Of a stretch of 64,000 bases of DNA, positions 2,920-30,209 are shown piece after piece. The position numbers were made by a program, and so were the translations under genes. Position 1 is the stretch's first letter, and each line of letters begins with the position of its first letter. The notes under the pieces are model-generated. The model searched no databases. It was not told where the DNA came from and worked only from the letters and a program-made list of their open reading frames with translations. Source of the DNA: Escallonia rubra (taxonomy: Eukaryota; Streptophyta; Magnoliopsida; Escalloniales; Escalloniaceae); assembly GCA_033065855.1 (NCBI GenBank), contig JAVXUO010002535.1, positions 124,001-188,000 on the forward strand, given 5' to 3'.

Positions 2920-3116
2920 CAATTTTTGTTTTGACCTGTTATAAGGTCCCACAATTAGAGCAAAATGACCATTTTATATAAAGCACTATAATATGTTAAT
3001 CCACCTCATTGTTTGTCGCTAAAAGATCAACTTTCATTAGTAGACATATTATTAGTTGTAAAAATGAGGTGGAAAATGGATGAGAATGGCATATTCTACT
3101 CAATTCATCCTTAAAC

Positions 3117-3176
<60 letters not shown>

Positions 3177-3411
3177 GTCACACTCATATTCACACACATC
3201 TCATCCTTTTTCTAAATCTTGCCTTTTTTCCGAACCCTATATCAACCCAATACAATTGGCTTAACCACGCCTATCAATAAAATAGTCACGATTACAATGT
3301 TCATGCCTTTAAGCATTCTTCAGTATTACCCTTGTAAGAATGTCAAATGAGATTCACGTGATTTATAGTTTTCAATATTTGTGTTCAACGTAAAAGCATG
3401 TGCGTAGGAAA
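2920..3411. other. Intergenic; one microsatellite, no gene seen
   Basis: A+T-rich spacer between the LINE and the diverged tandem repeats. Nothing in it is coding. The open frames overlapping 3080-3280 are created by the CT/CA microsatellite. Confidence 0.4.
3118..3176. repeat. Compound (CT)n-(CA)n microsatellite
   Basis: About 60 bp of CT dinucleotides with one interruption, passing directly into CA dinucleotides. Confidence 0.95.
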
Positions 3412-4120
3412 GATAAGCTCACAGGATGTAAGAAGCAAATCCGCCACTTATTTCTAGCCAAGTTGGATATAATGTAACAGTTGCCCTCAGCCTCGAATTA
3501 CAGCATATAGATGAGAATAAGTGGTTGGCCTAGCTCGGATACCATATTACCATCTTCGTATCCAACCCACAAGCATACTCAGAAGACGAATAAGCTCACA
3601 AGGTATAAGAAGCAGATCCACCATTTGTTCTTAGCAGATAGTGGACATAACATAAAACCCGCCCTTAGCCTCAATCCGAATTACGGCATGAGAATAAGAA
3701 TAAATAGTGGGCCTAATTCTACTACCATGTAAAAGTCGGTGTCTAACTCAAAAAGCGTATTCAAAGGAAGATGAGCACAAGAAGTGAATCAACCATGTGT
3801 TTATAGTAGATTTTGAATAAAAACTTAACACATGCACTCACGTGAAATGTGGGCTTAGGTAAAGATCGACCATCAAAGAACCTTGATCTGAAACATGGCA
3901 TAAGAATGGCAATAAAGCCTCGGCCAAAACATGAAAAGCCTGATTATGGCATAATGATGAGAATAGAAATAGACAGTGGACTTAACTATGATTATACCAT
4001 ATTATAATTTGGTGTCCAACTCAAAAGCGTCCTCAAAGTAAGAATAAGCCCAATCGGTACAAGAAGCAGATTCATAACTTATTTCTTATTAATCTGGAAT
4101 ATAATTAACAAGATTCAATG
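3412..4120 (+). repeat. Diverged tandem repeat, unit about 177 bp
   Basis: Recurring phrases mark at least four degenerate units: AAGCTCACAxGxTxTAAGAAGCA at about 3415 and 3592, shorter relatives at about 3773 and 4045, each followed by a CCATTTGTT/CCACTTATT phrase, then TACCAT and TCCAAC phrases. The first two units are spaced about 177 bp; the last spacing is longer, suggesting an insertion. No coding potential. Confidence 0.6.
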
Positions 4121-4726: not shown

Positions 4727-4905
4727 TGTCAATGGGGCGGGCTTGGGCGGGCCAGGCTCGGGCCCAGGCCCAGCAGGCCAGAATGAAAACCCGGGCCAAT
4801 TGGGCTTCGGGCCGCGGGAACGAGGCTGGGCCCAAAGCTGGATATTGAGGCCCTGTCCAAGCCCAAGCCCTAGGCCCTAACTTTAGGGCCGAGCCCGGGC
4901 CTGAT
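4727..4905. mobile_element. GGCCC-rich hAT-like terminus (degenerate)
   Basis: It starts TAGAGGTGTCAATGGGGCGG and continues as dense GGGCC/GGCCC motifs. Similar starts (xGGxTGxCAATGGGGC) head the hAT-like element at 63171 and many plant hAT non-autonomous elements. I found no convincing partner terminus. Confidence 0.35.
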
Positions 4906-5034
4906 TTCTTTTTTTTTTTAATTCGTGTTTGTGTTGTGAAAATATTAACACACAAAATAAATTTTTTGATAGGCCCTCCTCATTTTATCCAGGCTTGAGA
5001 CCGACTGCTTATAAACAAACAGGCGAAGTTACCT

Positions 5035-5059
5035 ATTATATATATATATATATATATAT
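5035..5059. repeat. (TA)n tract at the left edge of the large MULE
   Basis: Pure TA dinucleotides directly abutting the GGGAGCTGATCC terminus. The right end of the element abuts a matching (AT)n tract at 13240-13277. Confidence 0.9.
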
Positions 5060-5060
5060 G

Positions 5061-5160
5061 GGAGCTGATCCATTGAGAGCGCTAGCAAAATAAGATAAGT
5101 TGCTAGCACGATCTAGTTGTCCACGCGCGATCTGTGGACAGTCCAGATCTTTTTTTTGCG
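5061..5160 (+). repeat. Left terminal inverted repeat of the large MULE
   Basis: Begins GGAGCTGATCC and holds GTCCACGCGCGATCTGTGGA and CCAGATCT before a T-run. It pairs with 13139-13239. The outer 10 bp and an inner ~45 bp block match well; the middle is diverged. Confidence 0.65.
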
Positions 5161-5164
5161 TTTT

Positions 5165-5264
5165 CCGCTACATAATGTAGCGGACAATTTTTTGACAAAA
5201 TTGCCCTCCGCTTGATAGGCACAGCATGGTATGGTACAAGGCATCTGCTACATAATGTAGCGGA
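5165..5264. repeat. Two copies of the palindromic CCGCTAC/GTAGCGG motif
   Basis: CCGCTACATAATGTAGCGGA at 5165-5184 is an interrupted palindrome. A near copy (first base pair altered) lies at about 5244-5264. The same 20-mer with one change occurs in the related MITE at 61226-61245. Related motifs with an ACTCTTTGT spacer fill the other end of the element. Confidence 0.85.
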
Positions 5265-5818
5265 TGTATGGGCAGTATTCTTTCCCCAGATTTCTTTGGA
5301 AATGAGTCGGTCTCTATCATTTTCATTGAAGCCGGAGCCCAACTTAGCTCGAAGTTGCTTTCAGCTTGTTCCTAGATTTGGTTTCTCAACACCATAAGTG
5401 CTCAAGCATTCATGACTCCATCTTCTTCTTCCGGATCCGAAGGCGGAAAGGTTCTGATATACATGAAGTAGATAATAGCGAAGTGCCACAATACAGCACC
5501 AGATCTGATTTGAATGGATTTGAGTCCCCGATTGAGGCTCTCTCTCTCTCTTCTCTCTAGCCGCCGCCGCCACCAGACCAAGCACCACCGCCCACCAGAT
5601 CTAATGAAAAACAATCACATAATTCAATGAAATTGCTTCTTCTTCTTCTAATTCTATTTTTTCTGCCTTTTTCATTGTTCTTGTCCCTGTAATGGGTTTG
5701 ACTGCAAAATTGGTGGCGACGGTTTGGACGATGGTGGTTGGGTGCGGCGGTAGTTTAGCTGGTGGCGATTGGATCGTGGCGGCGGGTTGATGGCAGTTTA
5801 ATGGTTTGGGTCTATCTC

Positions 5819-5931
5819 GTTCAATTCATGAAACCACCATCGGCAAACTTAGAAAGCTTCAGTCTTTGGATCTATGCAGCAACAGAATAAGCGGTTTTCC
5901 TTCTGATTTCTGGAGCTTCAATCCTATACGA
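5819..5931 (+). pseudogene. Captured LRR receptor-like kinase fragment
   Basis: One frame reads TTIGKLRKLQSLDLCSNRIS followed by GFPSDFWSFNP, a leucine-rich repeat unit like those of plant LRR receptor-like proteins in which the text IGKLxKLQSLDLSxN...LPSDFWSL occurs. It ends at a stop just before the PMD region begins. About 110 bp only, so it looks like a short host-gene piece picked up by the MULE. What was captured can be identified only to the LRR-RLK family. Confidence 0.55.
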
Positions 5932-7350
5932 TGACCACGTCGCGAGGGTCGTATTTGACGGTGTCGAAAGGGGTGTTTTGGAAACAATTCAAAACACAAG
6001 TCACCTCGAAGTGTGGGTGCTAAATGAGGAACAAATACAAATATTACACCGTCAAAATTTGTCTATGTTCACCGTCCTTCATCATTGGTCTCGGCACGAC
6101 GAGTGCCTTATATCCGCTCTAGTTGAGTGATGGAGGAGCGAGACGAACACATTTCACTTCTGGTTTAGTGAAATGACTATTACACTAGAGGACGTCGGAT
6201 TTATACTTGGACTCCCATGTCACGGCAGACCCATTACATTGAGTAAGACGTCTGGAACGATAGCTTTCATCGTTGCAGACGTCTTACTCAATGTAATGGG
6301 TCTGGCAGTATTTTTCGAGAATTTCGAAGGAAGCTCTTACAACAAACGGCATCAAACCTAAGTGGCTAAGAAAGCAGTATGGTGTGCTACCTAATGCATA
6401 CACTCCTCATGATTTGGTGACGTATACGAAGGCATTCTTGCGGTATATTATTGGAGCTATATTACTTCCGACGCATTCGAAAAAGACGGTGCATCCGAAG
6501 TATATGCTGTTCTTGGATGACCTCGGGGAGGTATACTCATATTCTTGGGGTTCAGCTGTACTTGCGCACATATATCGAGCACTGCATAAAGCTATGAGAA
6601 GGGTGCCAAGTCCATTGTCGCATGCCTGACTCTATTACAGGTTTGAGCATTTATATTCTTGTTTGACGTGTCAATATATTCATGATTAATTACTAATTCC
6701 ATATAATATTTGCATTCACAGGTTTGGTCTTACGAAAGACTAACCACAGGTCGTCCACGGTCGCGGGATGATTCTGATGAGACCTGGCCTAGAGCGTGGG
6801 CTTGGGGGCATACGTCAGGCCGGAAGAGACGGGTAGACCCTCACCACCATCTAAAGTTCTATCGGGGGGAGCTAGAGATACTGGAAGCATCATAGGTGAC
6901 ATGGCAGCCATACACGAAGGTGATGCAACGGTTGGATGAGTTTTGTTGGCAACTTCCGGAGTCGTACATGCTGGCAGGTTTGGTTCGGGTGCCGTTCATT
7001 CACTTCGAAGTATGTGAGTTTCAGATGCCTGATCGAGCTATGAGGCAAGCTGGATGTCTACAAGGGATACCAAAACCCGCTGTAGACATGCAGCCATATA
7101 GGAAGGGCCGAGGGCTAAGCTTCGAGGTTCCTGATGCCTTGGATGTGTTGAGTGACGAGGTGCAATAGTGGATTACTTGGCAGGAAATGTATGATAGCCT
7201 TGTATCGCTGAAGAACCCCGGGCATCAGTATTGAGGAGTACTTGGCATGGTTTCTCAAGGTGACGCGCACGAGGGTGAATCGCCATTCCCAGGTGAAGAA
7301 GACAGCGTATGAGCCACGTGAGATAATCGACCAGTTCTGGGCGTTGAACA
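5932..7350 (+). pseudogene. Plant mobile domain (PMD) region, frameshifted
   Basis: Successive frames give typical PMD (MAIN-like) text: LEVWVLNEEQIQILHRQ, then WRSETNTFHF...EMTITLEDVGFILGLPCHGRPIT, then LPNAYTPHDLVTYTKAFLRY and HPKYMLFLDDLGEVYSYSWG, then VWSYERLTTGRPRSR and the C-terminal VTWQPYTKVMQRL. PMD proteins include MAIN and MAIL1, needed for genome stability and silencing in Arabidopsis, and many transposon-borne copies. The reading is broken: an in-frame TGA sits at 6127 between ALVE and WRSE, the frame changes after the hairpin at 6226-6304, and TGA/TAG codons separate later blocks. At least one break (about 6625-6720) may be an intron, because an acceptor-like CACAG precedes VWSYERL. 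The role in the transposon is unknown. Confidence 0.7.
6226..6304. repeat. Near-perfect 79-nt inverted repeat (hairpin)
   Basis: Two 36-nt arms (6226-6261 and 6269-6304) pair with a single G-G mismatch (6255 with 6275) around a 7-nt loop AGCTTTC. The first 29 bp of the stem, from the outside, are perfect. It lies immediately after the PMD text GLPCHGRPIT, and the right arm is not recognisable PMD sequence, so it probably arose by an inverted duplication of the left arm. Confidence 0.95.
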
Positions 7351-7449
7351 TTATAAGCCAGTTACTTCTGATTCATTTTTTATTTTTGCACCTTATCGAC
7401 CATGCCTGAAGTGATTAGCCATATTTTCCATGCATGTTTTTAGGTTGAC

Positions 7450-8606
7450 ATGGGCAGTGAGGTGTTTAGGCAGCTGGAGGGGTTTGACTGGTTTGTCGCG
7501 CATGTGCCTAACAGTGTCAAGCAGTCCATCGAGAGGTACCAGACTGAAGTGAACAACTTCAGTAATACGTACCGGGGTTACCAAGGGGAGCCGTCTGTTC
7601 TCTTGCCAGTTGACGCGTACGGCTCTCAGCCCCAGAGTCAGGTGACCCAAGCAACTCCCCAGGGGCGCCCAAGCATCCGGTCGGATAAAGGAGAAGTGAC
7701 GAAGCCACTGAGGCTGACTAAGCGGGACTGGATCGACGAGCACTACTTCGGGCCTGAGCCAAGAGCTTCAACAGACTTTCCTGTTGCCCGTTACCTAGGT
7801 CACGGGGACATGAGAACTTTGGCATCGGAAACAGATTGCTTGAATTTCGTCATGGACGCTTACACGGAGCTGCTCCGGGTTAGAAAGCTGCTCCATAACC
7901 CCTGCCCCACTTTGAAGCTCAACATGTATCCCTCTCATTTTATGCAAATACTGATAAACAGCATGAGGGATTTCACAGAATGGAGGAAGAGGCAAGGGAA
8001 GAGCAAGGGTGCGTGGATACCCTCAGGAAACGTGCTAGGCATGTTAAACTCGAACAATCAATATCACGCGTCTGAGGCGAACCTTATCATGATACCTTGT
8101 CTACATGCAACCACTTCTTCCTATTAGTTATGTATCCTACGATTAAAGCGATCCACATATATGATAGCCTGAGGGAGGACGGACCTGGTCAGACGCTGAC
8201 GCAGATGTACAAAACGTACATCAATGCAGCGGTTAGTCTAGAATTCGAAATTAATTTTACATTATATCATACTTGAAACGTGATTGACCTTTTTTATTGT
8301 TAGATGCAGACTACTATCATTCCGCTAGCGATTAGACATTATTTCGGAGAGACCATCACGAGCAATTCGACGATGGATCCTTGGACGGTCGAGATGATAA
8401 ATGACCGACCGAAGCAATACAACAGTCACGATTGCGGGATTTATGTGCTCAAGTACATGGACTACATAGCTCGTGCAGAGGTGCTCGAATCTACGTCGTG
8501 GTCTTGGAGGGATGCGTTGACGTTTAGATACAGGATAACGTGGAAGCTGAAAAAGGGTGAAGCTAGACGCCTTCCTTACTATTATCTTGACACAAGCTCT
8601 TACTAG
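7450..8606 (+). pseudogene. Ulp1-like cysteine peptidase (C48) domain of the MULE
   Basis: A long open frame (7450-8127, 225 codons) leads into a C48/Ulp1 core. The catalytic triad can be seen: His at 8112-8114 in CNHFFLLVM (family: HW; here HF), Asp at 8163-8165 in IHIYDSL, and Cys at 8433-8435 in NSHDCGIYVLKYMDYIA. Ulp1-type enzymes cleave SUMO or related conjugates. The His block is in a different frame from the 225-codon frame, so one shift separates them. About 74 bp between TYINAA (8231) and QTTIIPLA (about 8307) has GT...AG borders and is probably an intron. The frame ends SSY-stop at 8606. It lies downstream of the PMD region in the same orientation and may once have been one PMD-Ulp1 protein, as in other plant MULEs. 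Confidence 0.75.
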
Positions 8607-8614
8607 ACGTTTGT

Positions 8615-8770
8615 CCTATTATTACTATTGTTGGATTTTGGATATTGAGGTTTGAAATAAAATTAGCCTTATTACTACGATTGTTGGAGTTTGGATATTG
8701 AGGTTTGAAATAGAATTAGCATTATTATTACTATTGTTGGATATTGAGATTTGAAATAGAATTAGCCTTA
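8615..8770 (+). repeat. Tandem repeat, about 67 bp unit, after the Ulp1 stop
   Basis: Three imperfect units sharing TATTGTTGGA...GATATTGAGGTTTGAAATA and AATTAGCCTTATTA, starting just past the stop of the Ulp1 frame and ending where the large palindrome begins. Confidence 0.75.
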
Positions 8771-9725
8771 TTTGGTTTGTTGAACCTTAAAGTTATGAAA
8801 GGCCCCGATTAGTGTGCCTAAAGTGCAAGGAGCCAAAAAAAAAAAAAAAAAAACCAAATTTTACCGAAAGCTATGAATCGGGCTTTAAAGTGTGCCCGAG
8901 AAAGGGCGACACTGAAAAACCAAAAAAAAATCTTGTCTCAATTTTCGCCGAATTTCATAAGAAGTGGCTAATTATTGTGCCTAAAGTGGAGAAAGCCCGA
9001 AAAAAAAAAGCAAAAAAAATTGATCCCCAGGAGCTATGAATCCGGCTTAAAGTATGTCCGATAAGGGGCGACACTGAAAAATCAAAAAATATTTCTTGTC
9101 TCAATTTCAACTGAAAAGAGCTAAGTAGTAAGTGTGCCCAAAGTATAACCCAAAGTATGAGAGGATCGCAAAAAAAAATTTAATTAATTGCACCGAACCG
9201 CTACAAATAGTAGCAATTAGGGATAACTCTCAGTACTGCGAGGATGTTGAAAATGCTGAGAGCTATCCCTAACCGCTACTCTTTGTAGCGGTTAGGTGCA
9301 ATTTATTTTTTAAATTTATTATTATTATTATTATTTATGATCCTCTCATATTTTGGGTTTATACTTGGGGCACACTTACTACTTAGCTCTTTTCAGTTGA
9401 AATTGAGACAAGAAATTTTTTTTGGTTTTTCAGTGTCACCCCTTATCGGACACACTTTAAGCTGGATTCATAGCTCCCGGGGATCAAATTTTTTTTGTTG
9501 CTTTTTTTTTCGGGCTTCTTCCACCTTAGGCACAATAATTAGCCCCTTTCTATGAATTTCGGCGAAAATTGAGATAAGAATTGTTTTTAGTTTTTCAGTG
9601 TCGCCCTTTTTCGGGCACACTTTAAGGCCGGATTCATAGCTCCCGGTGAAATTTGGTATTTTTTTTTTGCTCCTTGCACTTTAGGCACACTAATTGGGGC
9701 CTTTCATAACATTAAGGTTCAACAA
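8771..9725. repeat. ~950 bp imperfect palindrome between the convergent MULE genes
   Basis: The left arm (about 8771-9230) reads TTGAACCTTAAxGTTATGAA, then GCACxxTAAAGTGxxxGAGC motifs, then TTGAGACAAG-type and GTGTGCCCAAAGTATAA motifs. The right arm (about 9250-9725) repeats these in reverse complement and reverse order. The centre is a shorter CCGCTAC/GTAGCGG-flanked inverted repeat (AGGGATAACTCTCAG with CTGAGAGCTATCCCT) around a ~22 nt loop. The 3' ends of the Ulp1 frame (+) and the transposase frame (-) point into it. Runs of A or T in each arm differ in length. Confidence 0.9.
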
Positions 9726-9784
9726 CCAAATCTCAAATTTCTACAGTAAAGATTAACAATTAAAGTTCAAATTAAACATTAACC

Positions 9785-12052
9785 CTAACACTCTTCTTCA
9801 TCATCGTCCTTCTCGACCATACCGTCAGGTTCGATACCTAGCACTTTATAATAATTTCTCTTGTCATGATCAGTCCTCTTATTACACAGCACACACTTTC
9901 GCAGTCGTTTCTGACCCGTTGCAACTTTAATCAGACTCTTCATACGAATTGCTTGCTTTCGCCCTTTTGTTTGAGAAATAATTGGATAAAAAATATCTTC
10001 ATCCTCACCTTGCAGGCTAGCTCTGTCAACAACTGGTTGTGAAGCAATGACTAAAGCTCAAGTGATTCTACCGGCTGGAGTATCGGCTGGATTTGTCCGA
10101 ATAGTTGGAGTGTCCCGTCTGTCTGGTATTGCCACCCTGAACTGTCCAAGATTAGCCTTATCCCGTGCGGCTGCTTCAACTTGATACTTGTACCCATCAA
10201 ATGTTGACGCCGCATCCAATGATAAACCATGCATGATGTTACAGAGGTGATTATATCGCAGTGTCTCAGATTGCTCGAAATCAACTGTAACATTGGGCAC
10301 GTAAGGTATGTGACCGTGTATTCTATTGGCTTGCTTCATCCACCGTTCTAAGATATACTCTTTCCAAATTTCATAAGCATTCTTCGTGCTAGAAAACTTC
10401 AACGCGTGTCGACAAAGTATACCTTTATGCTCAAACAATTGACAGTTACAATTAACAAATCCGGTGTACAGACAAACCACTACGGTGAAATGTCTTCTGT
10501 TCTTCGGAACCGAAGAAGAGCAGGGATTGGCAAAATTTGTCACATTTGTCATAGCATAAGCTTTGAGATCTTTGGTGCACTGCTCGTACAACTTTGTCAT
10601 GCTATACTGATTCGACTTTTGTAGTTCCTCTTGAAACTGTCTAAACATTTCCTTTGTATAGACTTGAGCCGCATGAGCCTCCAAAGGTGAAAAAACTAAT
10701 ATGGCTCTTTCTTTGTAAACAGTAGCCGCGTCGGCTTCTCTCTCAAGGAAAAATTTCTTGTCAAGGGCTTTCTGCATCTCAAGTACGAACTCCTTTATAC
10801 TTGAAGAATGGTCTACGTACCCATCAAAGAATGCGTTCATACCTTCGCTTCTCGAGGTCGTAGTCATTTCGGCTGCAAAATACTTTTTGGTGTAGGCACC
10901 GACCCATTGTGTCTTGATCTCATACAACGCTTTCAATCATTCATGATTGTGCAAAGAGTAGTCATCCATTAACTTGGCCCACCTCCTCTCGAACACGTCG
11001 GCCGTCAATGATTTCTTCACACATTTATTAAAGTCACTCTTGAATGTCGGATGGTTTGCATATACATTGTGAAGCCGTTCAGGATATTTGTTGCTTATGT
11101 GCCATATGCACAGGCCATGATGAGTATCTGGAAAGACCCTAGCGATTGCATTTTTCATTGCCAAATCCTGGTCGGTGATGATGGTTTTTGGAAGAATATG
11201 ATACATTGATTCAAGCCAAGTTTCAAATAACCACGTAAATGACTCCTCCGTCCCATCTCTAAGCAGGGCAAAGCCAAACAAGATTGATTGATAGTGGTGG
11301 TTCACCCTCGGTAAATGGAGCAAAAGGCATAGAGTACTTATTTGTGCAGTATGTGGTGTTAAACGTCACAACATCGCCAAAGTTTTGGTAAGCAGCTCTA
11401 GAACGGGCATCCGCCCAAAATATAGTACCAATGCGGTTCTTATTATCCAGTTGGAGACTATAGAAAAAGCCAGAATTCTCACTCTAAAAGCGCTTGAAGA
11501 TATCAAGCGTAGCCTGAGAATCACTCTTCTTAAAAGACTCTCTCCTTTGATCACAAAGTTCATTTCGAATGTCTACTTCGTTGAAGCTCAACTTGTCAAT
11601 CCCCCCAGCCTGGCTTGAGAAAACCCCCATCATTCTAGAAGGTGGAATTTTTGCCTCGGCCATTGTAAATATCAATTGTCTGTGTGCCGCACTTATTTGT
11701 CGGTGCGAATGAATTTGACCGACCTTACTAGGGGTCATCAATTGATGATTATGGCTCAACTCGACTCCCATCACAACCCAATGGTTTTCATTTTTTTGGT
11801 TTCTGCATACACACGGGCCTTGTAGCCGATACCCAAAAATGTGTCCCTTTTTCTTTGTCTTGTTGGCCCTTCATCACTGATCCGAACAACCGGGGGTACA
11901 TGTGGTGCTCCTCTATGACACTCAAATAGTCGGAAACAAATTTGGTCTGTTTTCGCCCGTTTTCTAGTTGTCTTAATTCTAACACCGAAACCCAGCCTTG
12001 TCGAATATGCTCTATAGTATGCTTCAACTTCGTTGCATCCAGTTGTATCCAT
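9785..12052 (-). pseudogene. FAR1/FHY3-related MULE transposase, degraded
   Basis: Domains in order on the minus strand. FAR1-type DNA-binding region (about 12052-11700: AYYRAYSTRLGFGVRI, CFRLFECHRG, then VELSHNHQL). MULE catalytic domain (about 11400-10840: GDVVTF-N-TTY, ILFGFALLRDGTEESFTWLF, TIITDQDLAMKNAI, GLCIWHI, TSRSEGMNAFFDGY). SWIM zinc finger (about 10470-10410: CNCQLFEHKGILCRHALK). C-terminal Cys/His tail (CVLCNKRTDHDKRN) and acidic end stopping at 9785. Of the D-D-E residues, the first is Asn (codon 11358-11360) where the family has Asp in DTTY; the second Asp (TDQD) and the Glu (SEGMN) remain. The reading changes frame several times (near 11790, 11480, 11330 and 10935). Host FAR1 genes have the same order, but the position between MULE termini argues for the transposase. 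Confidence 0.85.
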
Positions 12053-12361
12053 ATTTATATTAAAATCTACATAAATATTTTTTTATAAATTATCAACACA
12101 TCATAAAATTAACATTAAGTTTTGTAAAGTAAAGAAACTGAAATGAAATGAAAAGGAAAAACTTACTATGTAGTATTGTTGCTTTCAAGTGTCTCCTCCT
12201 TCAAGATAATTGCTCCAATTTTGAACACAAACCAATATCACCAACTATGGATTAGCTAGTTTCAAGATATAAGTAAAACTTACTAGATCTAATTGAACTT
12301 GGATTCTTGCTAGAGACTTAAAGCTTTGTGATGTTGGAAGAGTTTAATAGAGTTTTTGTTT

Positions 12362-12650
12362 GGGGTTGATGAAAGATGTGGTGGTGAAGAAATGTGGGTT
12401 TAGGGTTTATGGAGGATGAAGAAATGGTTAGGATTTGGGGTTGATGAAAGATGTGGTGGTGAAGAAATGTGGGTTTAGGGTTTATGAAGGATGAAAAAAT
12501 GGTTCGGATTTGGGGTTGATGAAAGATGTGGTGGTGAAGAAACGGGGGTTTAGGGTTTATGGAAGATGAAGAAACGGGGGTTTAGGGTTTATGGAAGATG
12601 AAGAAATGGGGGTTTAGGGTTTATGGAGGATGAAGAAATGGTTAGGGCTC
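12362..12650 (+). repeat. Tandem repeats of 75 bp then 32 bp containing TTTAGGG
   Basis: Three 75 bp units begin GGGGTTGATGAAAGATGTGG at 12362, 12437 and 12512. They pass into about three shorter 32 bp units of GAAGAAACGGGGGTTTAGGG type. Every unit carries GGGTTTAGGGTTTATGG, which contains the plant telomere-type TTTAGGG motif. They lie in the leader of the minus-strand transposase. Confidence 0.9.
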
Positions 12651-12659
12651 GTGAGTGGG

Positions 12660-12835
12660 GAAGAAAAATAAAGAAAGAAATAGAGAGATAGAGAGAAAAA
12701 GAAAAAGATTAAAAGGGTGTTAGAGAGAGAGAAAAAAAAGGATCCACTCTGAGAGAGAGAGAGAGAGAGAGAATGTAAGTGAGAGAGAGAAAAAAGGAAT
12801 CCAATAAGAGAGAGAGAGAGAGAGATTGCCAAAAG
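12660..12835. repeat. GA-rich low-complexity tract
   Basis: Repeated GAGAGA and GAAAAA runs between the 32 bp units and the subterminal motif array. The open frames across it are compositional. Confidence 0.8.
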
Positions 12836-12856
12836 TAAAGGAGGAAGGACATCCCC

Positions 12857-13135
12857 AACCGCCACAAAGAGTAGCGGTTAGGTGCCCACACCGCTACTCT
12901 TTGTAGCAGCTAAGGGGTCTTTTAATGCTTTTTTAATGAAGCTATTGGAAGTTTAATGCTTTTTTAATGCAGCTGTGGGAAGTTTAAAGGCATGCCCCAA
13001 CTGCCAGAAAGAGTAGCGGTTGGGGGTTTTCACGTGGGCCCCTAACCGCTACTCTTTGTAGCGGTTGGGTTTTTTTTTTCCCTTCCAGGGGTATTTTTGG
13101 GTATTTTGCAACCGCTTTAAATAGTTGCGGTTACC
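12857..13135. repeat. Subterminal array of CCGCTACTCTTTGTAGCGG motifs
   Basis: Copies or half-copies lie at about 12857-12882 (inverted), 12890-12911, 12998-13020 (inverted), 13047-13070 (complete palindrome) and 13111-13135 (degenerate, TTTAAATAG spacer). A complete copy also lies at 9271-9295 in the centre of the palindrome. GTAGCGGTTxGG is the constant edge. Subterminal motif arrays are where transposases of several families bind; that role is inference here. Confidence 0.8.
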
Positions 13136-13138
13136 ATT

Positions 13139-13237
13139 TTTTGAAAAAAAAAAGGATAGATCTGGTCCATCCACGAGTACACGTGGACGGCCAGATTTAT
13201 GGTGGTTATTTCTCCACCGGTAGATGTGGATCGGCTC

Positions 13238-13239
<2 letters not shown>
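13139..13239 (-). repeat. Right terminal inverted repeat of the large MULE
   Basis: The reverse complement of the left end: A-run, AGATCTGG, TCCAC...GTGGAC, ending GATCGGCTCC at the (AT)n tract 13240-13277. Confidence 0.65.

Positions 13240-13277
<38 letters not shown>
13240..13277. repeat. (AT)n tract at the right edge of the large MULE
   Basis: AT dinucleotides beginning directly after the element terminus CGGCTCCAC; see the matching tract at 5035-5059. Confidence 0.9.
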
Positions 13278-20994: not shown

Positions 20995-21250
20995 ACTCCT
21001 GCTCGGCCCGATCTGGCCCTAAAATGGCTCAGCTTGACCCGGCCTTATAGGTGAATAGTGTCAGCCCTGGACCATAAGGCCTAGGGCCAGGGCCAAGCCT
21101 AATTTTTTGGCAAAAAAATCCAACTGGCCCCGCCCTATAAAGGCCTGGGTCAAGCCCTAAAAAACGGGGTGGCTCAAAATTGGCTCTTTTTTAGGGCTGG
21201 CCCGGTTTTTAGGGCCGGTCCGGGTCTGGCCTGGCCCTAGCCCGGCCCCA
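20995..21250. repeat. GGCCC-rich repeat, likely hAT-like subterminal region
   Basis: Dense GGCCC, GGCCTAGGGCC and GGCCCGG motifs, like the stretch at 4727-4905 and typical of the ends of some non-autonomous hAT elements. Termini were not found. Confidence 0.4.
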
Positions 21251-21964
21251 TGCAGTTTTTAAATTCCAGATTCCCCCCTCCCCCCAACAGCTATATTCTC
21301 CCCTTTTTGCAAATTTCACTTTTAGCCCCCTAACAGCTATATAACGGCTAGTTTAGGGGGTTATTTTTGTCCAACAAATTTCTAACAACTCTTTTATGCT
21401 TTTTTACACTTTTAACCTCCCCAACAACTATAAAAGACTAGTTTTAAGGGGTACTTTGGTCTTTTGTGGACTTTAAAAAATCTATTAATTCACCCCATTT
21501 ATTTCATATTTTTCACACCAATCTTCTCGGTCTCTCTTATCTAAATTCTACAAGCTTTGCTACCATTGTTACTAGTTTTGATCCCATGCGTTGCACACGA
21601 GAGCAACTATAGTCAATAAATTACGTAAATAAAATAATAAAAGCATGATACTAAAGTTTTTGACAAAGAATGGAACAGAAGTGACGGAATCCATATAATG
21701 GTCACCTATTTTTTGATAAAATCTGAGTAAGCTCCAAAGTTCACTCATTTTCAAGAACCACACTTGTGTGAATGGTTATGAACTCATATGCAATGCACAA
21801 GGTGTCCTAAGAGCATTTTAGGTCATACTCATCAATCCAAGCATCAAACCAAGACTAGTTACATAATAGTAAAGATCAACCATAATCGATAGTAACTTAA
21901 TCTATGCATTCTTTCTTACTATTTGACATTGGACTTAATGAAACTTTCATAGCATGTCCACTAT
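21251..21964. other. Intergenic; nothing recognised
   Basis: Between the GGCCC-rich stretch and the MuDR relic. Two short C-rich phrases repeat (CCCCCTAACAGCTATA and CCTCCCCAACAACTATAAAA, about 21330 and 21415). No gene was seen. Confidence 0.3.
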
Positions 21965-22064
21965 AGCTTTAAGCTTCTTTGGCTTTAATCCATCTATCCT
22001 ACTTTTCAAACACATTAGAACATAATCCATGTGTAGTTATCATCAAACAACATATAAGCCTAGA

Positions 22065-23889
22065 TTATCCAACCATAGGGCTAACGCTACCACCAACACA
22101 TTTGACTACACATTTTGTCCCAGGGTTCAATCTTTTCAGTTCTGCAGCATCGTCCCACAACATTGAAAACTGCTCAATTATTGTCCCTTCAACAAGTTCC
22201 ATAGCCTTTTTCCTTGTTCTGTATACCCGAGCCTTAGAAATATTCATCACCACATCTCTCATCACAATTGTCCAGAAGGCAGTTACATGCATATTAGGGT
22301 TTGTCCTAAAAACATCAATATACCTCTTGGACATCCATCTAGAAGTCACATGCTTATTTTTGAATGACATATTGCATGTATCCTTATCAACTAGGATTTT
22401 TACTTGTAGATTGTCCTGTCCTCTGAACCTGGATATATATATATATATACAAGTTGCTTCTTCAGGCATCTCTAGTTTACAACATGCTCTAAGTTTCCAT
22501 CTACTGTTCTTTAAGAATTTGATTGGTCTTCCTTCCCTAATTGCACACATCTTAATGGCATCTCTTGCCTGTATATGGTTACTACATTCCCAACTCAAAT
22601 TTTGGATGCTCCATGGAGCTCTCAGCATTAAACTCTGCAAAGTCCATTTCATCTATTGCTTCATCATCAGATGAACCACATGCAGATTGTATCTGTCCAT
22701 CATGAGATGCATCTATATCCCCCATGACACCTTTCCCCTTCCCATTCCCTTTTCCAGCTAGGGTACCACCAAATTCTGCCTCTTTGTCTATGTTTGTATC
22801 AAATAACAGGTCATCAAACTCAGAACCAAACTCACTGTCATCCATTTGTTCATAAGACCTATCACTTTGACTATCACTATCTACTTCCATATTTAAATCA
22901 CCCTGAACACCCACCTCATTATTTACATTGTCTGCTTCCATATTTAAAGCACCATCAGTAGCCCCATCACCACCTTCATTTAGTTGTTGGCCTAAAAGAG
23001 CCTCATCATCCACCTCTGTTTCACTGGCTAGAGGCATCTCAGCATTCCCTCCCCCATCAGCCCTGTCACACTCTGTTTCATTGCCCAGATGAATCTCAGC
23101 ATTCCTTCCACCATCAATAACATGACACAAAGTTTGGGTATTAGGTCCAGCCAAATAGAAACTAATTGTCATGTCATTAGGAATAACTCTACCATCCTCG
23201 TCTAACTCTTCTATGACCATTGAAGTTCTTCTACCTAGTAAAGCATATATCTCTTCAAGATGAGATTCATAATACTCATAAAACATAGTCTTCTCATCCA
23301 CTTCTTCAAAATACATTTCAATCTCCATGTGGTTAGGTATAAAGGGCCACATTTGAACTAATTCACTATCAGTCTCTACTCTAACTAACCAGACTCTAAG
23401 TCCTTCCCATCATTTTCTAATAAAATTTCATAAAGCCATCCAGCCCAATTTCACTTGCCATTTTTCCTAACTCAATCATTGACATGCACTCAGTATCACA
23501 ATAGTCAATGTATCTAACATGACAAAGGTAATAAACTCTGTGAGGTCTCATGTAAAAATGACCCCCAAACATCAATTTTATAGTAAAGAAGGTGGAGCCA
23601 TTCCCTGCAAAAAATAATTGCACAAATGGGGCCAACATTAACACCTATATCACAGTATTACATACATCGATGACATTATTACATCCATGCATAAATCAGA
23701 AAGTTATAGTTTTAGTTGACTGAAAGTACCCTCATTATCTTGTATCACTGTTAGCATGCATATACATTACTCGTATATGTAAAATCGTTATGAGCAAAAT
23801 CAAAAAGTAAGGTTAATCGACAAATCAGACTTACTGTACAATGGTTGCCCATAGTCGTAATCCTCAATGCTTCTTATCCCCCAAGACAT
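22065..23889 (-). pseudogene. MuDR-type transposase N-terminal half
   Basis: Exon 1 (23889-23835) begins MSWGIRSIEDYDYGQPLY and ends in GTAAGT. An acceptor precedes exon 2 at 23604, and the phase fits (A+GG). Exon 2 holds the PB1-like N-terminal module (FGGHFY...YIDYCDTECMSMIELGKMAS). In-frame TAG codons follow KFY and GRT near 23416 and 23397. From 23352 an open frame of 256 codons carries the long acidic Asp/Glu/Gly linker, ending at 22582. The MuDR zinc-finger-like DNA-binding text (KHVTSRWMSKRYIDVF, and AAELKRLNPGTK near 22110) is in another frame. It stops just before the DDE catalytic core, so it could at most encode a DNA-binding remnant. It is related to Mutator transposases of the MuDR class, not to the FAR1-like one at 9785-12052. 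Confidence 0.8.
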
Positions 23890-23905
23890 TGTTCGATTCC
23901 AGTAC

Positions 23906-24010
23906 GGGATTAGGGTTACGATCACGATTTGGGATTTTTGCAATACGAGATTAGGGTTACAATCACAATTTGGGATTTTTGTAGTACGGGATTAGGGTTA
24001 CAAGATTGGA
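23906..24010 (+). repeat. 41 bp tandem repeat with TTAGGG
   Basis: GGGATTAGGGTTAC...TTTGGGATTTTTG units begin at 23906, 23947 and 23988 (last incomplete), near the end of the MuDR-type element. Confidence 0.9.
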
Positions 24011-24258
24011 GTTTCATTTGGGTTAGTTGAAAGCTTTTGGCAATTAAGCAGATGGTTTTACACGACGATTTTAAAATGACAAATATGGCTTGACAAAATT
24101 GCCCCTGACAGAAATGGCTAAATCGTTAGGAATTTGGACAGAAGTCCTTACTTATTGCGAATTTGAAATTACAGACCCTTATGTGTAAAAAATAAACTTT
24201 AGGACCCTCAGGTGAGACTTCGGAATACTTTCAGGGTACTAACGTGTATTTAACCCTT

Positions 24259-25108
24259 AAATAAACTTCTCCTGTTTCCTGAAAGAAGAAAAAGTTCCAG
24301 TACCTCTGCAAGCCCTAAAATAACTTCACAAACATCCCAATTAATTCATCAAATTCTGAAACTTTGTTTCCACAACACCATCTCACCTCCGCACAATCTT
24401 ACCGTCGATGGGATGTTGCCGATGTTGAGTCACCTTGGGGCCGCCTCGACGTCAACACCGACGTGTCCTTAGTGACGACAGAGAGCCCCATCGGCCTGCC
24501 ATGGATTGAACCCGGATGAAGATAGAAAAGGGAACTGGGTCAGATCTAAAGTAGAGGTGGTGGTGGCGGGTGAAAGTATAGGTGGTTCTCGTCGGTGGCG
24601 GCATCGGGTGTGGTGAGTAGTGATGGTGCGTTACTTTGTGGTGCGGCGAGGAGATGGTGTTGTGGCGGCAGAGACTTGACCAAGGATAGCTGATGGGTTG
24701 CTGCGACTATTATGGTGGTGGAAGCTAGTGACGATGGTGGTCTGCGGTGGAAGCTGTTAGTTGTGTCGGTCACGGCAGATCTGCAGACTTAAGAGAGGCG
24801 AGCTTTTATCGGAGGATTTGCCACTGCCGGCGAAGGACTTGTTGAGGGGAGTGGGAGAGAGGTGCTTGATCTGGTCTAGGGCTTTGCCAGGAGACTCCAA
24901 CAGAGCTATGGTGAGATGTATTTATAGGTTGGTGGCTGCGCGACTCTGAGTAGGCTTGGTTATGCAGTTGTGAGTGAGAACCAAGCACGGGGTTGGGTGG
25001 TGTTTTTGTTCAATAATGAACATTAAAAAAGGAAAATTAAAAATTAAAAATAAAGGGTTAGAGTTGTCCTTTTCTAAGTACGTTAAAGTTGTTTATATGT
25101 AATTGATA
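24259..25108. other. Unassigned G+C-richer segment
   Basis: A stretch richer in GGTGG/CGGCGG triplets than its surroundings (about 24370-24960). Short open frames on both strands are Pro/Ser/Thr- or Gly/Arg-rich and match no family I know. It may be remnant exon or promoter sequence of a host gene, but I cannot support a gene. Confidence 0.3.
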
Positions 25109-25237
25109 TCTATCTATATAATAATATATAATAAGCGAATCAATAGCTTCTTTGCATGACACGTCATCTCAGACATAGCTTCTTTAATTGACATATCATC
25201 ACATTATATTTTCAATGTGAAATAGAACTATAACTAT

Positions 25238-26760
25238 TATAAGTGTCACTAAAAGTCTGAAATACTATCTTGGATGGAGTCCTTATTTCTTGATAAGTTA
25301 ATTTCTCTACTAGTAAGCCTTATATAATTGAAAAAGGAATCCTAAATGTTCTGAAACTTTAACTAATTAATGGATAAACTTATTAGGACTTAATTTTGAG
25401 TATTGTCTCCTCAAAATCACTCTCCAATATGAATATAAAAATTCATATATCAAAAAACCGAAAATAATATTATCTTGAATGTGATGCTTATTTATTAATA
25501 AGTTAATTTTCATATTAGTAAGTCTTATGTAGTTGAAAAACTAATTCTAAACATTCTGAAATTCTAACTAATTTTATAAGTGTCACTAAAGGTCTGAAAT
25601 ACTAGCTTGAATGAGGTCCTTATTTCTTGATAAGTTAATTTCTATATTAGTAAGCCATATATAATTGAAAAAGTAATTCTAAATGTTCTAAAACTCTAAC
25701 TAATTAATGGATAAACTTATTAGGAGTTAATTTTGATTATTGCATCCTAAAACCACTCTCCAATATGAATATAAAAATTCATATATCTAAAAAACGAAAT
25801 TAATATTATCTCGAATGGGGTCCTTATTTATTGAAAATTAATTTTCATATTAGTAAGCCTTATACAGTTGAAAAACTAATTTCAAACATTCTGAAACTCT
25901 AGCTAATTTTATAAGTATCACTAAAGGTCTGAAATACTATCTTAGATGTGATCCTTATTTCTTGATAAGTTAATTTTTATGTTAGTAAGCCTTATATAAT
26001 TTAAAAAGTAATTCTACTGTATAATTGGTATTACTTAAAATCACAATAATGGTAAGTTTATTCGTAAATGTGATAGTTGCAATGGATTTAAAGGTATATA
26101 CTAAACATGTCAGTGTATATAAAGGTATGTAAATAATATTTTGGATGTGATCCCTATTTTTAAGTTTATTTAATTTTGCTTCCAAAACTCTAAATTTACT
26201 AATTTTTTAGGATTTGAATTTGACTATCATGTTCTTAAAACTAACTTTCTGATACGAAGATAAACAATCATGTATCTAGAAAATAAATATAACACATGAT
26301 ATTTAAAACAAAAATTTATGTTTCAGTTAATTTTATTTTATTATGATTGATAAAATGTATATGCATTTGCACATAACATAATTATTGAAAACCAATTATC
26401 TATATAATATATAAAATTAATAATCAAATTATAGGATAATATTTTGCTTTGATAAAACATCACGATCAACAAAGTGGTTATATAAGCGTAAATGAGATCT
26501 TGAAAAGAAATCACCTATGTACTAGAGAAAAAAAAAAAGGGTGCAATTAAATCAAATTATTCTTAATTACTATATTTGGGAACATTTCAAACCTTTAAGA
26601 TGCAAAAATATGAAATATCATCAGATTATATTATCAATATAAAATAAAATTATAAACATTATAAGTGTCTCTAAAGGTCTCAAATATTATCTTGAATAGG
26701 GTCTTTATTTCTTGATAAGTTAATTTTCATTTCAGTAAGCTTTATATAATTGAAAAACTA
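25238..26760 (+). repeat. ~337 bp tandem repeats inside the Helitron
   Basis: The phrase AAGTGTCACTAAAxGTCTGAAATACTA starts units at about 25238, 25575 and 25912, with a further diverged unit near 26660. Each continues with CCTTATTTCTTGATAAGTTAATTT and TAGTAAGCCTTATATA. Within each unit the phrase CTTGATAAGTTAATTT...GTAAG appears in two variants about half a unit apart, so an older ~170 bp unit may underlie it. Confidence 0.8.
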
Positions 26761-27080
26761 ATTCTAAGCATTCGGAAACTTTAACTAATTAATGAACTAA
26801 CTTATTATGACTTAATTTTAACTATTGTATCCTTGAAATCACTCTCAAATATGAACATATAAATTCATGTCTACAAAATGAAAATAACATATTAGACTTA
26901 GAAGATAGAAGAAAATGATGTTACAATTGAAATTGAAATAATAAAAATAAGACAACAATTGGTTCATATTCATTGTATTTTAATATAGGGTAAAGTACAC
27001 ATCGGACCCCTGAGGTTTGCCCTAAAATACACAAAATTAACAAAATAATGAAAGGACGGTCATACTCAATTTACCCCTTA

Positions 27081-27117
<37 letters not shown>

Positions 27118-27118
27118 C
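27081..27118. repeat. (TC)n-(AC)n microsatellite
   Basis: TC dinucleotides passing directly into AC dinucleotides, within the Helitron body. Confidence 0.95.
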
Positions 27119-28102
27119 ACACCCTTATTAAAGAAAAACATATACTTGACAATAATGGGTATTATGTGGTTGTTTTTTTAAATTTATTTTTGCAAAAAGT
27201 AATAACTTTTTTGAAAGTGATAAGGTCTATACATAAGTCTGTTAAATTTAGAATGTAACTTTATTCCTTTTAAATTTCTACTTAATCATTATAATAACCT
27301 CATGAACATATAAATGTAATATCTTAAAGACCCTCTGAAGTTAAAGAACTAAATCCATATGTAACATTTACAATTCAAAAGGGATACCTTTACCATATTT
27401 TAACTACAACTCATCGTATTCGCTATTTAGCTATATATCACACTAGCATAACTATTCTATTGCTCTAAGTATTAAGTCAATATTCATTTGAAATACTACT
27501 TGACAACTTAAAACAAAATCTTAAAAAAGACAAGTATCTAGCGGCTCCACGTACTATGTCGCTATCTATTCTTTATCTTTCAACTTACAATATAACGAAA
27601 TCACAGGTGAACAGACATGTATATTCAAAGTTATTGTATGCAGTATAACCAAACCAATAGTGCTATTTAATAATCGAAAGTTAGGAGTAATGTAAATGAA
27701 TTCATCTTTTCATATTTTACTTAAGTTAGTCGTGATTAATTTAGATACTAAAATTATTCTTTGTAGCCAATTTATACTGTTAATGTCTTTTTTATCTCAG
27801 GATATGTGGTACGTATTAATACACTTTTTAAAACCTTATAATATACTTTAAGGAGTATTTTATAAACCGGCCGAGCTTGGCTCGGGTTACTAGGCTAGTA
27901 TTCTTTAGTAGATGATCACGCAAGATGTTAACTGTAACTCCAAGGGATTGAAGAATATGTTAGTATCAAAAAAGAACATTAGAAAACGAAAAAAGTAAAA
28001 CAATTGTAGACTCTTGAAAATAATCACTAACTTCTTCCATTCATAACAAAGAACGTAAAGTCAGAGCTATTGTTTTCTAGAAATAAGTAAACAACCTCAT
28101 GT

Positions 28103-30209
28103 TTAAGAACCAGCTGCACTGCCTCCTCCAGAGGTGTCAAGCACCATAGATGCATACAACAGCCTGTTCCATGTATCAGGCAAGCCCGGGAGGCACCAGT
28201 GGCTGCAGTCAGCAATATGTTCCGGCCGCTTCCCTTTCTGCTCTATCAATTGCTTCCCTGTCTTCGTCCCGTAAATTGTAGAATGTGCATCTCTTCTGTA
28301 CCGCGACAGCTCTGTGATGTTCAAGTACCTTACTGGTGTCCTCATCCGATGAAATGTAGCCCTAACGATTTCCATCAGGGGCTCTGGAAATGATGCGACC
28401 ATAGGTGACTCCTTTTCTATGGGTTGGGTCACATTGTAACACCAATCTTTTCCTTTGTGTTCTGGTGAAATGCTCCTAAAATACACACTTGTTTTGGTTG
28501 GAAGAACATTGTCATCCACCCAGTTTTCCCAAGTCTTCATTGCCATCGCGAATGCTTTCTCTATGTTCATCTCCTCGACCAACTTCCCCTCATATCCAAA
28601 CATGTCCCATCTGCAAAGTTTCATAACAACACACAAAATATGTTAATTTCTCAACCTTAACTTATCAGAATCAATTTGTAGAAAAGGCGGCCAGTGTGAC
28701 GGGGTTTTGGGTGTATGCAGTTTTAATCCTCTTGTGAAATTAGAGATTACGTTTTGCACTGAGTAGAAAACTTACGCCCTAAACTTTCCACGGTGCACCC
28801 ACCAATGACCAGTGTTGAATACCATAACGTCAGCCCCATGCCAACGCCTAGCCGTTGCATCGATTTTATCTAGCCTCAAAATTTTGGTGCCATTGGCTTG
28901 TTTTGTGTCTAGTTGCACCAGGAATGGACTCCAGTAGAACTCCACAGAAACATTGTAGTCCTACAACAGCAACAGGAGCAATTGTATTAAATATTTCTAG
29001 AATTCAGAGGCACACATGGTTAAGGATCCATTTACGAATTCTGCAGTTCATGAACCACTAAATTAGGTTGATTTGATATTTTTCATCAAGTAACTAAGAA
29101 TGGCAAATGAGATCTATAAGAAAAAGGATACAAGTATTTAAATGCACAACGTAAGGGATTCATGTTCATTGTGCAATCTGATACAACTGAAGCCTCTCTT
29201 GATCATATCATTGCCCATAACAAATGTCATAAAAAAGATAAGACTTCATTTGGAGGACAAACAGATTTCAGCCTCATGGTGCTTCAACCGTGAATACCGA
29301 GTGCAAATTTCTTCGAAACTTTCAACAAAGCAAGGTAAAAATGCTGGGCTTTAACTGGTATCTAACCTCGTTTGTCATTAACAACGTAGTATTAGACACT
29401 TTTCATTTAAGGGGAATAAATCAGGTGACATAAAGAAACTAGCATAGGAATAAAACCTGGGAAATTGAGAAACATGTTCACCTTTGCTCGAAATACTTTG
29501 TAGGAACCATTTTGAAAATCAACCTCAGCCGTTGAGGAGGGTATAGCAGAATAGAGAAGGCAAGCAAGAGATTCCCACTGGTTTCTGTTTAGTGAATCTC
29601 CAACCAAGACCACTCTCTTCCCTCTAAGCCTCTCCAACATGTCTCTCCCATCAAACCTGAAAAAAAGTCCAATCTAATATTTTGTCAATCTATACCAGAA
29701 CACCATAAAATGGCTTTGTTTAACAGATTCTTAAGATAATAAAACTATATAGCACAAGATTGGAAATAATATTTTGAACATTTCAAATTTGGTCTCTTCT
29801 TAAGGGACAGAGGTAGTATATATTTGACTTACCTAGGAATCTCACATTCATGAGCTTCCCAACTCCATTTCTCGTACTGAAAGTCTGGCCGTCCGTGCCT
29901 CTGACAGCTTACTTGATCACTAAGAAACGGGCACCGGAAATCATCGTACAATAAATTCTCCATCGGCTTGTAAACCCAACGTCCCTTGAACATGTTGCAT
30001 TTTACATCTCTTTGGTGTATGGGTTTCACGTTCTCGCTTATGCCGGATCCCAAGAAATCAATGTCGGATGATGATTGTAAAGCTATGGTGTGGACGAGGT
30101 TTCTGACATCATGGCTGCGATTGAGGCACATCAAAAGGATGAAGCAACCAAGTATGCTTGCAAATGTACAAAGCTTCCATCTCTCATGGATTCTTGAAAT
30201 GGCTTCCAT
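28103..30209 (-). CDS. Trichome birefringence-like (TBL, DUF231/PC-esterase) polysaccharide O-acetyltransferase
   Basis: Four exons with GT-AG borders and matching phases: 30209-29833, 29656-29482, 28960-28776 and 28610-28103, giving 414 residues and a normal family length. An N-terminal membrane anchor ([19 protein letters not shown], residues about 13-31) predicts a type II Golgi protein. The PMR5N part follows ([12 protein letters not shown]...[20 protein letters not shown]). The PC-esterase part has the GDS motif ([15 protein letters not shown], exon 2) and the DxxH motif ([15 protein letters not shown], exon 4), the Ser and Asp/His of the catalytic triad. TBL proteins acetylate wall polysaccharides such as xylan, pectin or mannan. 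The substrate cannot be told from sequence; the subgroup is uncertain. No break was seen. The upstream region was duplicated twice (30055-35530). Confidence 0.92.

Follow-up and report, generated by a model that had tools for sequence, protein, structure and literature searches.

A (TA)n-inserting Mutator-like element family with an apparently fused PMD-Ulp1 gene convergent to its FAR1-type transposase gene

The locus at positions 5061-13239 of the window (a 64-kb stretch of one contig, compared here with a 566-Mb genome that is plant by content) holds a broken member of a family of Mutator-like elements (MULEs) located in (TA)n microsatellites. Convergent to a FAR1/MULE/SWIM transposase gene, these elements carry a companion gene combining a plant mobile domain (PMD) with a Ulp1-type SUMO peptidase (Peptidase_C48). 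Comparison of the copies shows what is predicted to be an autonomous MULE in (TA)n with one fused companion gene kept by selection. The initial annotation had described the locus as a MULE coupling a SUMO-protease module and a PMD module to a transposase; the coupling is that of a real family under selection, but PMD and Ulp1 apparently form one fused gene rather than two units, and the genes of the window are broken. Here it is proposed, with a probability of about 0.5, that the family consists of autonomous MULEs inserting into (TA)n, in which the PMD-Ulp1 protein would serve as the element's own anti-silencing factor, resembling VANC and KIU. The question of why Ulp1 and PMD genes recur in plant transposons becomes testable with this family, which is young and present in many copies, some of them intact, and which combines the two domains in a single conserved gene.

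Organization of the intact copies

The copy L029 (contig C1443) is intact, having four open PMD-Ulp1 exons, predicted by frames, and an open transposase frame of 777 aa with MULE (9e-33), FAR1 (2e-13) and SWIM (2e-7) domains. Exons 1 and 2 cover positions 15-181 and 180-346 of the 347 of the PMD profile (PF10536), with 154 and 71 bits against a curated cut-off of 34.9, giving a full-length domain over two exons. Exons 3 and 4 cover positions 7-120 and 149-208 of the 217 of Peptidase_C48 (PF02902), with 34.3 and 38 bits against a curated cut-off of 20.7, and their His-Trp, Tyr-Asp-Ser and Gln...Asp-Cys-Gly motifs align with SENP5 (E 0.032) and SENP2 (E 3.2e-6). A search for a solved structure related to the PMD found none, the best match having an E value of 0.28. 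One PMD exon (L029 639-1406) also matches DUF7745 (26.4 bits, cut-off 26); PMD, DUF1985 and DUF7745 may be one superfamily.

The left end of L029 coincides with the end of the contig, and its two termini are therefore not both seen. A complete copy of ~12.0 kb is present in C58 (~21013 to 33031), where terminal inverted repeats (TIRs) of ~2.45 kb and 94% identity bracket the genes; its ends (GGGGACCGATC...), which lie in (TA)n, closely resemble the right end of the window copy. Neither the PMD-Ulp1 exons nor the transposase of C58 contain stops, the transposase match extending over 768 of 777 positions with 3 gap positions. The same end type was found at both ends of L012, L016 and others. A clear TA run was seen by eye at 11 of the 17 listed termini of this type and not at the other 6, and (TA)n is also found at the right end of the window copy and at both ends of C58. 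A 9-bp target-site duplication was looked for, but the (TA)n around the insertions does not allow the limits of such a duplication to be set. In C202 and C1523, tandem units of ~597 bp make up long stretches at the termini, and the transposases of these two copies carry one stop (C202) or two stops plus frame breaks (C1523). In young copies, units of this kind (L029 6900-9000; L042, L048, L049) lengthen the termini, in the manner of a satellite derived from a transposon terminus.

Recurrence of the gene order across the genome

The counts of neighbouring genes were taken from lists of 134, 150, 150 and 150 matches, so that they are lower bounds leaning to the best matches. Among the matches listed, PMD exon 1 was free of stops in 133 of 150, at 92-100% identity, and 67 of the 150 PMD matches had a listed Ulp1 at most 4.5 kb away. 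In all 67 close pairs of PMD and Ulp1, Ulp1 lay downstream of the PMD in the same orientation, and the Ulp1-transposase (41/41) and PMD-transposase (25/25) pairs were all convergent, with at least 15 loci having the three parts together. With the window Ulp1 as a query, 38 of 38 listed pairs were convergent, against 0.57 pairs expected under random placement; the recurrence of the gene order is therefore not due to chance. The order given in the initial annotation thus recurs with intact frames, as in C58 and L029, and relatives do not always carry one unit only, the copies without a unit being single cases (L012, L040, L010+L011 and L052). That PMD and Ulp1 are two modules joined in the window copy only was rejected on the recurrence of these pairs and on 13 gene regions of young copies.

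These 13 young regions (L029-L041) were all chosen for a listed Ulp1-transposase pair. Both PMD exons are present in 12 of them, counting L037, where exon 1 is short of its first 43 codons; in L040 only 52 of the 230 codons of exon 2 are found, so that most of the PMD is missing. Each exon gives a single match without stops in L029, L034, L035 and L039, and the remaining nine regions have a stop, a frame break or a missing part. Additionally, five transposase copies were chosen for lacking a listed Ulp1 partner; Ulp1 was at the expected place in four of these and was not seen in the fifth, L052. The older relatives L013+L014, L015, L016, L018 and L020 have the order of PMD-Ulp1 gene, repeat array and opposed transposase gene with all parts recognisable. 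Among other relatives, L009 is without most of exon 4, L010+L011 retain a 40-residue Ulp1 stub, L012 is without most of the PMD, and L028 is rearranged; no transposase was found in the stretch fetched for L017, and L019 had terminus matches only among the parts searched.

Recent amplification of the family is shown by near-identical copies, as judged from their sequences, the PMD-Ulp1 exons of C202 and C1443 being 99.6-100% identical as protein. PMD exons that tie in both score (530.8 and 527.6 bits) and identity form groups spread over many contigs, which suggests recent transposition bursts or duplicated contigs in the assembly.

Selection on the PMD-Ulp1 gene

The ratio of nonsynonymous to synonymous substitution rates (dN/dS) was calculated pairwise between copies with bootstrap ranges, ignoring shared ancestry. 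Between L029 and L039, both intact, it was 0.42 (0.28-0.64) for PMD and 0.50 (0.34-0.73) for Ulp1, with similar PMD and Ulp1 values for L029 vs L032 (0.36 and 0.41), L034 vs L039 (0.42 and 0.49) and L039 vs L041 (0.49 and 0.58). The PMD ratio ranged from 0.36 to 0.49 over the five diverged pairs tested, which include L029 vs L041; the pairs L029-L034 and L029-L030 are too close to be informative. Among young pairs with lesions included, the medians were 0.50, 0.45, 0.57 and 0.53 for exons 1 to 4, respectively. Transposase dN/dS was 0.40 between L029 and the broken window copy, for which the exon-2 ratio is unreliable because the frame is broken. By these ratios, the PMD-Ulp1 gene is under purifying selection. 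In pairs with L040, Ulp1 looks less constrained, as if the loss of the PMD had relaxed selection.

These data also bear on the alternative that the element acquired PMD-Ulp1 from the host by transduplication and carries it as a passenger of no benefit to itself, which is disfavoured as very improbable. MULEs often capture gene fragments, which counts for this alternative, as does the leucine-rich repeat (LRR)-like fragment in the foreign left arm of the window copy described below. ULP capture in MULEs has also been judged frequent (PMC2528002; this and the other papers are cited here from their available sections). However, the gene model is complete, with the great majority of listed exon-1 matches (133/150) free of stops, PMD dN/dS is 0.36-0.49 in the five diverged pairs, and place and orientation are constant in all the listed close pairs.

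Fast-changing repeats in the hinge and between the genes

The hinge of the PMD-Ulp1 protein contains 20-aa (60-bp) tandem repeats, four of them in both L029 and L042. In the 150 exon-3 matches listed, the commonest open frames were of 336/337 (39 matches), 356/357 (20), 378 (8), 398 (6) and 316 (3) aa, which form a ladder of ~20 aa; other lengths, for example 209, 361, 259 and 372 aa, occurred in four or five matches each, and frame lengths also depend on neighbouring stops.

The intergenic region changes as well. An array of 166-167-bp units has 3.4 units in C1443 vs 6.7 in C202, despite the near identity of their PMD-Ulp1 exons. The repeats are direct only in L029, L042, L043 and L044, and the region is partly inverted in L012, L013, L015, L018 and L028 (400-730 bp at 69-83%), the cut pieces L010 and L011 having an inverted stretch of 60 bp or none. 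The old copies of the window, L016 and L020 have an intergenic palindrome of 860-990 bp at 84-86% identity (8772-9730, 2983-3918 and 4886-5726, respectively), and read-through of this region would give a hairpin RNA. A later origin of the central palindrome by nested insertion was rejected, because related arrays occupy the corresponding position in other copies (as direct repeats in the four young ones examined).

Possible function of the PMD-Ulp1 protein

The PMD-Ulp1 protein is proposed to act like VANC and KIU of Arabidopsis VANDAL elements, without being classed as a member of that group. VANC contains DUF1985 and tandem peptide motifs, and its targets are tandem repeats (PMC5735166); KIU is a VANC with Ulp1, and a review reports that KIU hypomethylates related VANDALs (PMC13317346). 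An anti-silencing role is favoured because of four parallels with these proteins: the DUF1985 match, found in 8 of 8 PMD exons (best 2.1e-7), the variable hinge repeats, the fast-changing non-coding arrays and the Ulp1 domain. PMD proteins act in silencing (PMC5418596, PMC7156037), and from this role, together with the Ulp1 residues, the DUF1985 match and the hinge and array repeats, PMD-Ulp1 probably has an anti-silencing function. The PMD part, with its sub-threshold link to DUF1985, would bring the protein to the element, perhaps by landing on the tandem non-coding arrays. The Ulp1 part would there strip SUMO from host silencing or chromatin proteins, and both the transposase and PMD-Ulp1 genes would remain transcribed. 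MULE-borne PMDs and their proposed anti-silencing role have already been published (PMC5418596). In tea plant, PMD genes yield 21-nt phased small interfering RNAs (PMC10673657), which is consistent with PMD-bearing transposons as silencing targets.

Several observations weigh against an anti-silencing role. The DUF1985 match in L029 reaches 29.1-29.3 bits against a curated cut-off of 35.1, the eight matching exons are copies of one family and not independent, and DUF287, the other VANC domain, had no match in the five L029 segments scanned. The arrays and termini share few 8-mers, the best being ACCGCTAC (3 and 5 times in the window copy) and GGCGAAAA (6 and 5 times in C202), and therefore no target motif common to both was found for the family among 8-mers; the palindromic CCGCTAC...GTAGCGG motif is present in some copies only. 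Regarding selection, the constraint on Ulp1 is weaker in L029 vs L041 (dN/dS 0.65, range 0.38-1.24; PMD 0.42), exon 3 has ratios of 0.66-1.0 when L040, which lacks the greater part of the PMD, is one of the pair, and purifying selection also fits a helper of transposition.

Such a helper would make PMD-Ulp1 an accessory transposition factor, for integration or (TA)n target choice and not for anti-silencing, an alternative that is tentative and rather unlikely. It would agree with the fixed place and orientation of the gene beside the transposase, the presence of the Ulp1 partner in four of the five transposase copies chosen for lacking a listed one, a constraint similar in strength to that of the transposase, and the location of family members in (TA)n. 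However, copies without most of the PMD exist (L012, L040), although these were possibly moved in trans, and AutoMuTAnT targets TA repeats with a single ORF (PMC4486113), indicating that a second gene is therefore not needed for (TA)n targeting.

Anti-silencing could also be exerted as a decoy, the PMD binding to or competing with host PMD complexes of the MAIN/MAIL type and Ulp1 acting on these partners, with no DNA targeting by the element's own repeats. MAIN and MAIL1 take part together with PP7L in the silencing of transposable elements, and the occurrence of PMD-PP7 fusions points to PMDs pairing with enzymes in cis or in trans (PMC7156037); however, this leaves the variation of the hinge and array repeats unexplained, and it is considered distinctly unlikely. 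In a more novel reading, PMD-Ulp1 may be a sequence-specific anti-silencing deSUMOylase, with PMD and the DUF1985 of VANC as branches of one DNA-reading transposon domain, and with hinge repeat number and arrays changing together as a recognition pair, each subfamily de-silencing only itself; in this full form the proposal is doubtful. The match of the PMD to DUF1985, although below the cut-off, suggests that the MAIN/MAIL silencing proteins and the VANC anti-silencing proteins may have a common domain ancestor, which, if true, would join two separate literatures.

The window copy and its foreign left arm

By comparison with the intact copies, the window copy is an old, broken, left-truncated member of a large autonomous FAR1/Jittery-type MULE family in (TA)n. 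Profile scans of the window placed PMD at 6297-6626 (PF10536, E 3.6e-13) and Peptidase_C48 at 8304-8603 (PF02902, E 6.8e-9) on the plus strand, and SWIM at 10061-10936 (E 2.5e-5), MULE at 10940-11365 (E 1.1e-22) and a sub-threshold FAR1 piece at 11774-12082 (E 9.4e-6) on the minus strand, confirming the convergent arrangement initially reported. On the plus strand, exon 1 (5918-6629, PMD N-terminal half, delimited by comparison with intact L029 exon 1) is missing its ~10 first codons and contains a TGA (6128-6130) as well as a fold-back of 36 bp (6226-6304), and exon 2 (6722-7411, PMD C-terminal half, homologous to L029 1485-2174, which covers PF10536 180-346/347) has five in-frame stops in the aligned frame. 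Exon 3 (7444-8230, +) comprises the hinge and the N-terminal half of Ulp1, including His (8112-8114) and Asp (8163-8165), the L029 exon matching Peptidase_C48 7-120/217, and exon 4 (8304-8606, +) comprises the C-terminal half of Ulp1, including Gln (8415-8417) and Cys (8433-8435), the L029 exon aligning with SENP2. All residues of the Ulp1 His-Asp-Cys set, previously described as complete, are thus readable, but with a frame break immediately 5' of the His and an apparent intron 5' of the Cys.

Between the 3' ends of both genes lies the palindrome of ~960 bp (8772-9730), made of ~163-bp repeat units related to the direct 166-167-bp arrays of young copies. The transposase gene (9788-12082, minus strand), recognised by domain matches and homology to the 777-aa frame of L029, is spread over several frames with several frame breaks and stops. 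The FDTTY stretch of the intact copy reads FNTTY in the window, and the Asp changed to Asn is taken here to be a catalytic residue. Upstream of this gene, repeat analysis found a 75-bp tandem repeat (12359-12646). Next come, on the right side, the palindromic motifs of the subterminal region and the genuine terminus of the PMD-Ulp1 family (TGGAGCCGATCC...; 12854-13239, minus strand), for which 78 matches were counted, several elements having them at both ends; the terminal motif of C58 is closely similar. The (TA)n microsatellite of the right edge follows (13240-13277).

The left side is different. Next to the (TA)n of the left edge (5037-5060), the segment 5061-5910 (+) is the left terminus and body of another MULE family ('LE') with an LRR-like gene fragment, outside the PMD-Ulp1 element; the match to L002/L021 and L003/L022 spans ~890 bp (5037-5915/5918) at 90-91% identity. 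Homology to the PMD family starts abruptly at 5918, inside exon 1 and ~10 codons into the L029 frame, and the junction lies within ~5909-5918. Members of the left-arm family carry their own terminus kind at both ends, and the right terminus type of the window was found at both ends of relatives on C1016, C701, C1696 and C2345. Because the left arm is foreign and the right terminus type stands at both ends of relatives, the window copy is read as a chimera, a PMD-Ulp1 MULE without its own left end to which the arm of another MULE is joined. A single element with its own two termini at 5061-13239 was rejected, and with it the matching inverted termini of the initial annotation: the outer ends share only GGAGCyGATCC and weak similarity, and since the two families have this outermost sequence and (TA)n flanks in common, the ends looked matched. 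Regarding a nested insertion, a junction does exist at the left end, where the other MULE's arm begins, but none was found between PMD, Ulp1 and transposase.

The left-arm family (window 5061-5910; L021 97-1633; L022 110-1581) consists of separate, Pack-MULE-like non-autonomous MULEs of ~1.5 kb, which are flanked by (TA)n, have subterminal palindromes of the CCGCTACATAATGTAGCGG type and carry a gene fragment resembling an LRR. The LRR-like ORF was read by eye at 853-1116 of L022, and L021-L027, fetched for the left arm, have only this family among the parts searched. Elsewhere in the window, an ORF at 43610-44146 (minus strand) resembles a Copia-type reverse transcriptase (YVDDIL, by eye). A plasmid collection queried with window 5061-8600 gave 0 matches.

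Comparison with known systems

In the open-access literature searched, in which preprints were not covered, no PMD-Ulp1 fusion in a MULE was found; a PMD-protease fusion has been mentioned for genic proteins (PMC7156037). Among the closest parallels are KIU and VANC of the Arabidopsis VANDAL MULEs (Kaonashi), which likewise have a second MULE gene with a Ulp1 domain (PMC13317346, PMC5735166, PMC2528002), a DUF1985-related N-terminal part, tandem peptide repeats and tandem non-coding repeats. Similarly, in KI-MULEs the Ulp1 gene is in reverse orientation to mudrA (PMC2528002), as the companion gene is to the transposase gene here. However, the N-terminal part is here a full PMD, with DUF1985 below the cut-off and no DUF287 match, and, unlike VANDALs, called non-TIR in the available part of the review, the family has a FAR1/SWIM transposase, long TIRs and (TA)n insertions.

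The Jittery-like MULEs of melon and grapevine that carry ULP also share a Jittery-like transposase with a ULP gene downstream, which in grapevine is found in both orientations (PMC2528002). No PMD is reported for them, the terms 'PMD' and 'mobile domain' being absent from the main text of that paper. MULEs that target (TA)n are also known. MuTAnT and AutoMuTAnT of Medicago truncatula are Jittery-related elements in (TA)n with a distal G run and a foldback structure, but AutoMuTAnT, of 4.9 kb, has a single transposase ORF and no companion gene reported in the sections available (PMC4486113). Finally, the MULE-encoded PMD-C of grasses and Amborella is, like the gene described here, a MULE-borne PMD for which anti-silencing has been proposed (PMC5418596); there the fusion partner of the PMD is the transposase, whereas in this family the partner is Ulp1, encoded together with the PMD in a separate gene convergent to that of the transposase.

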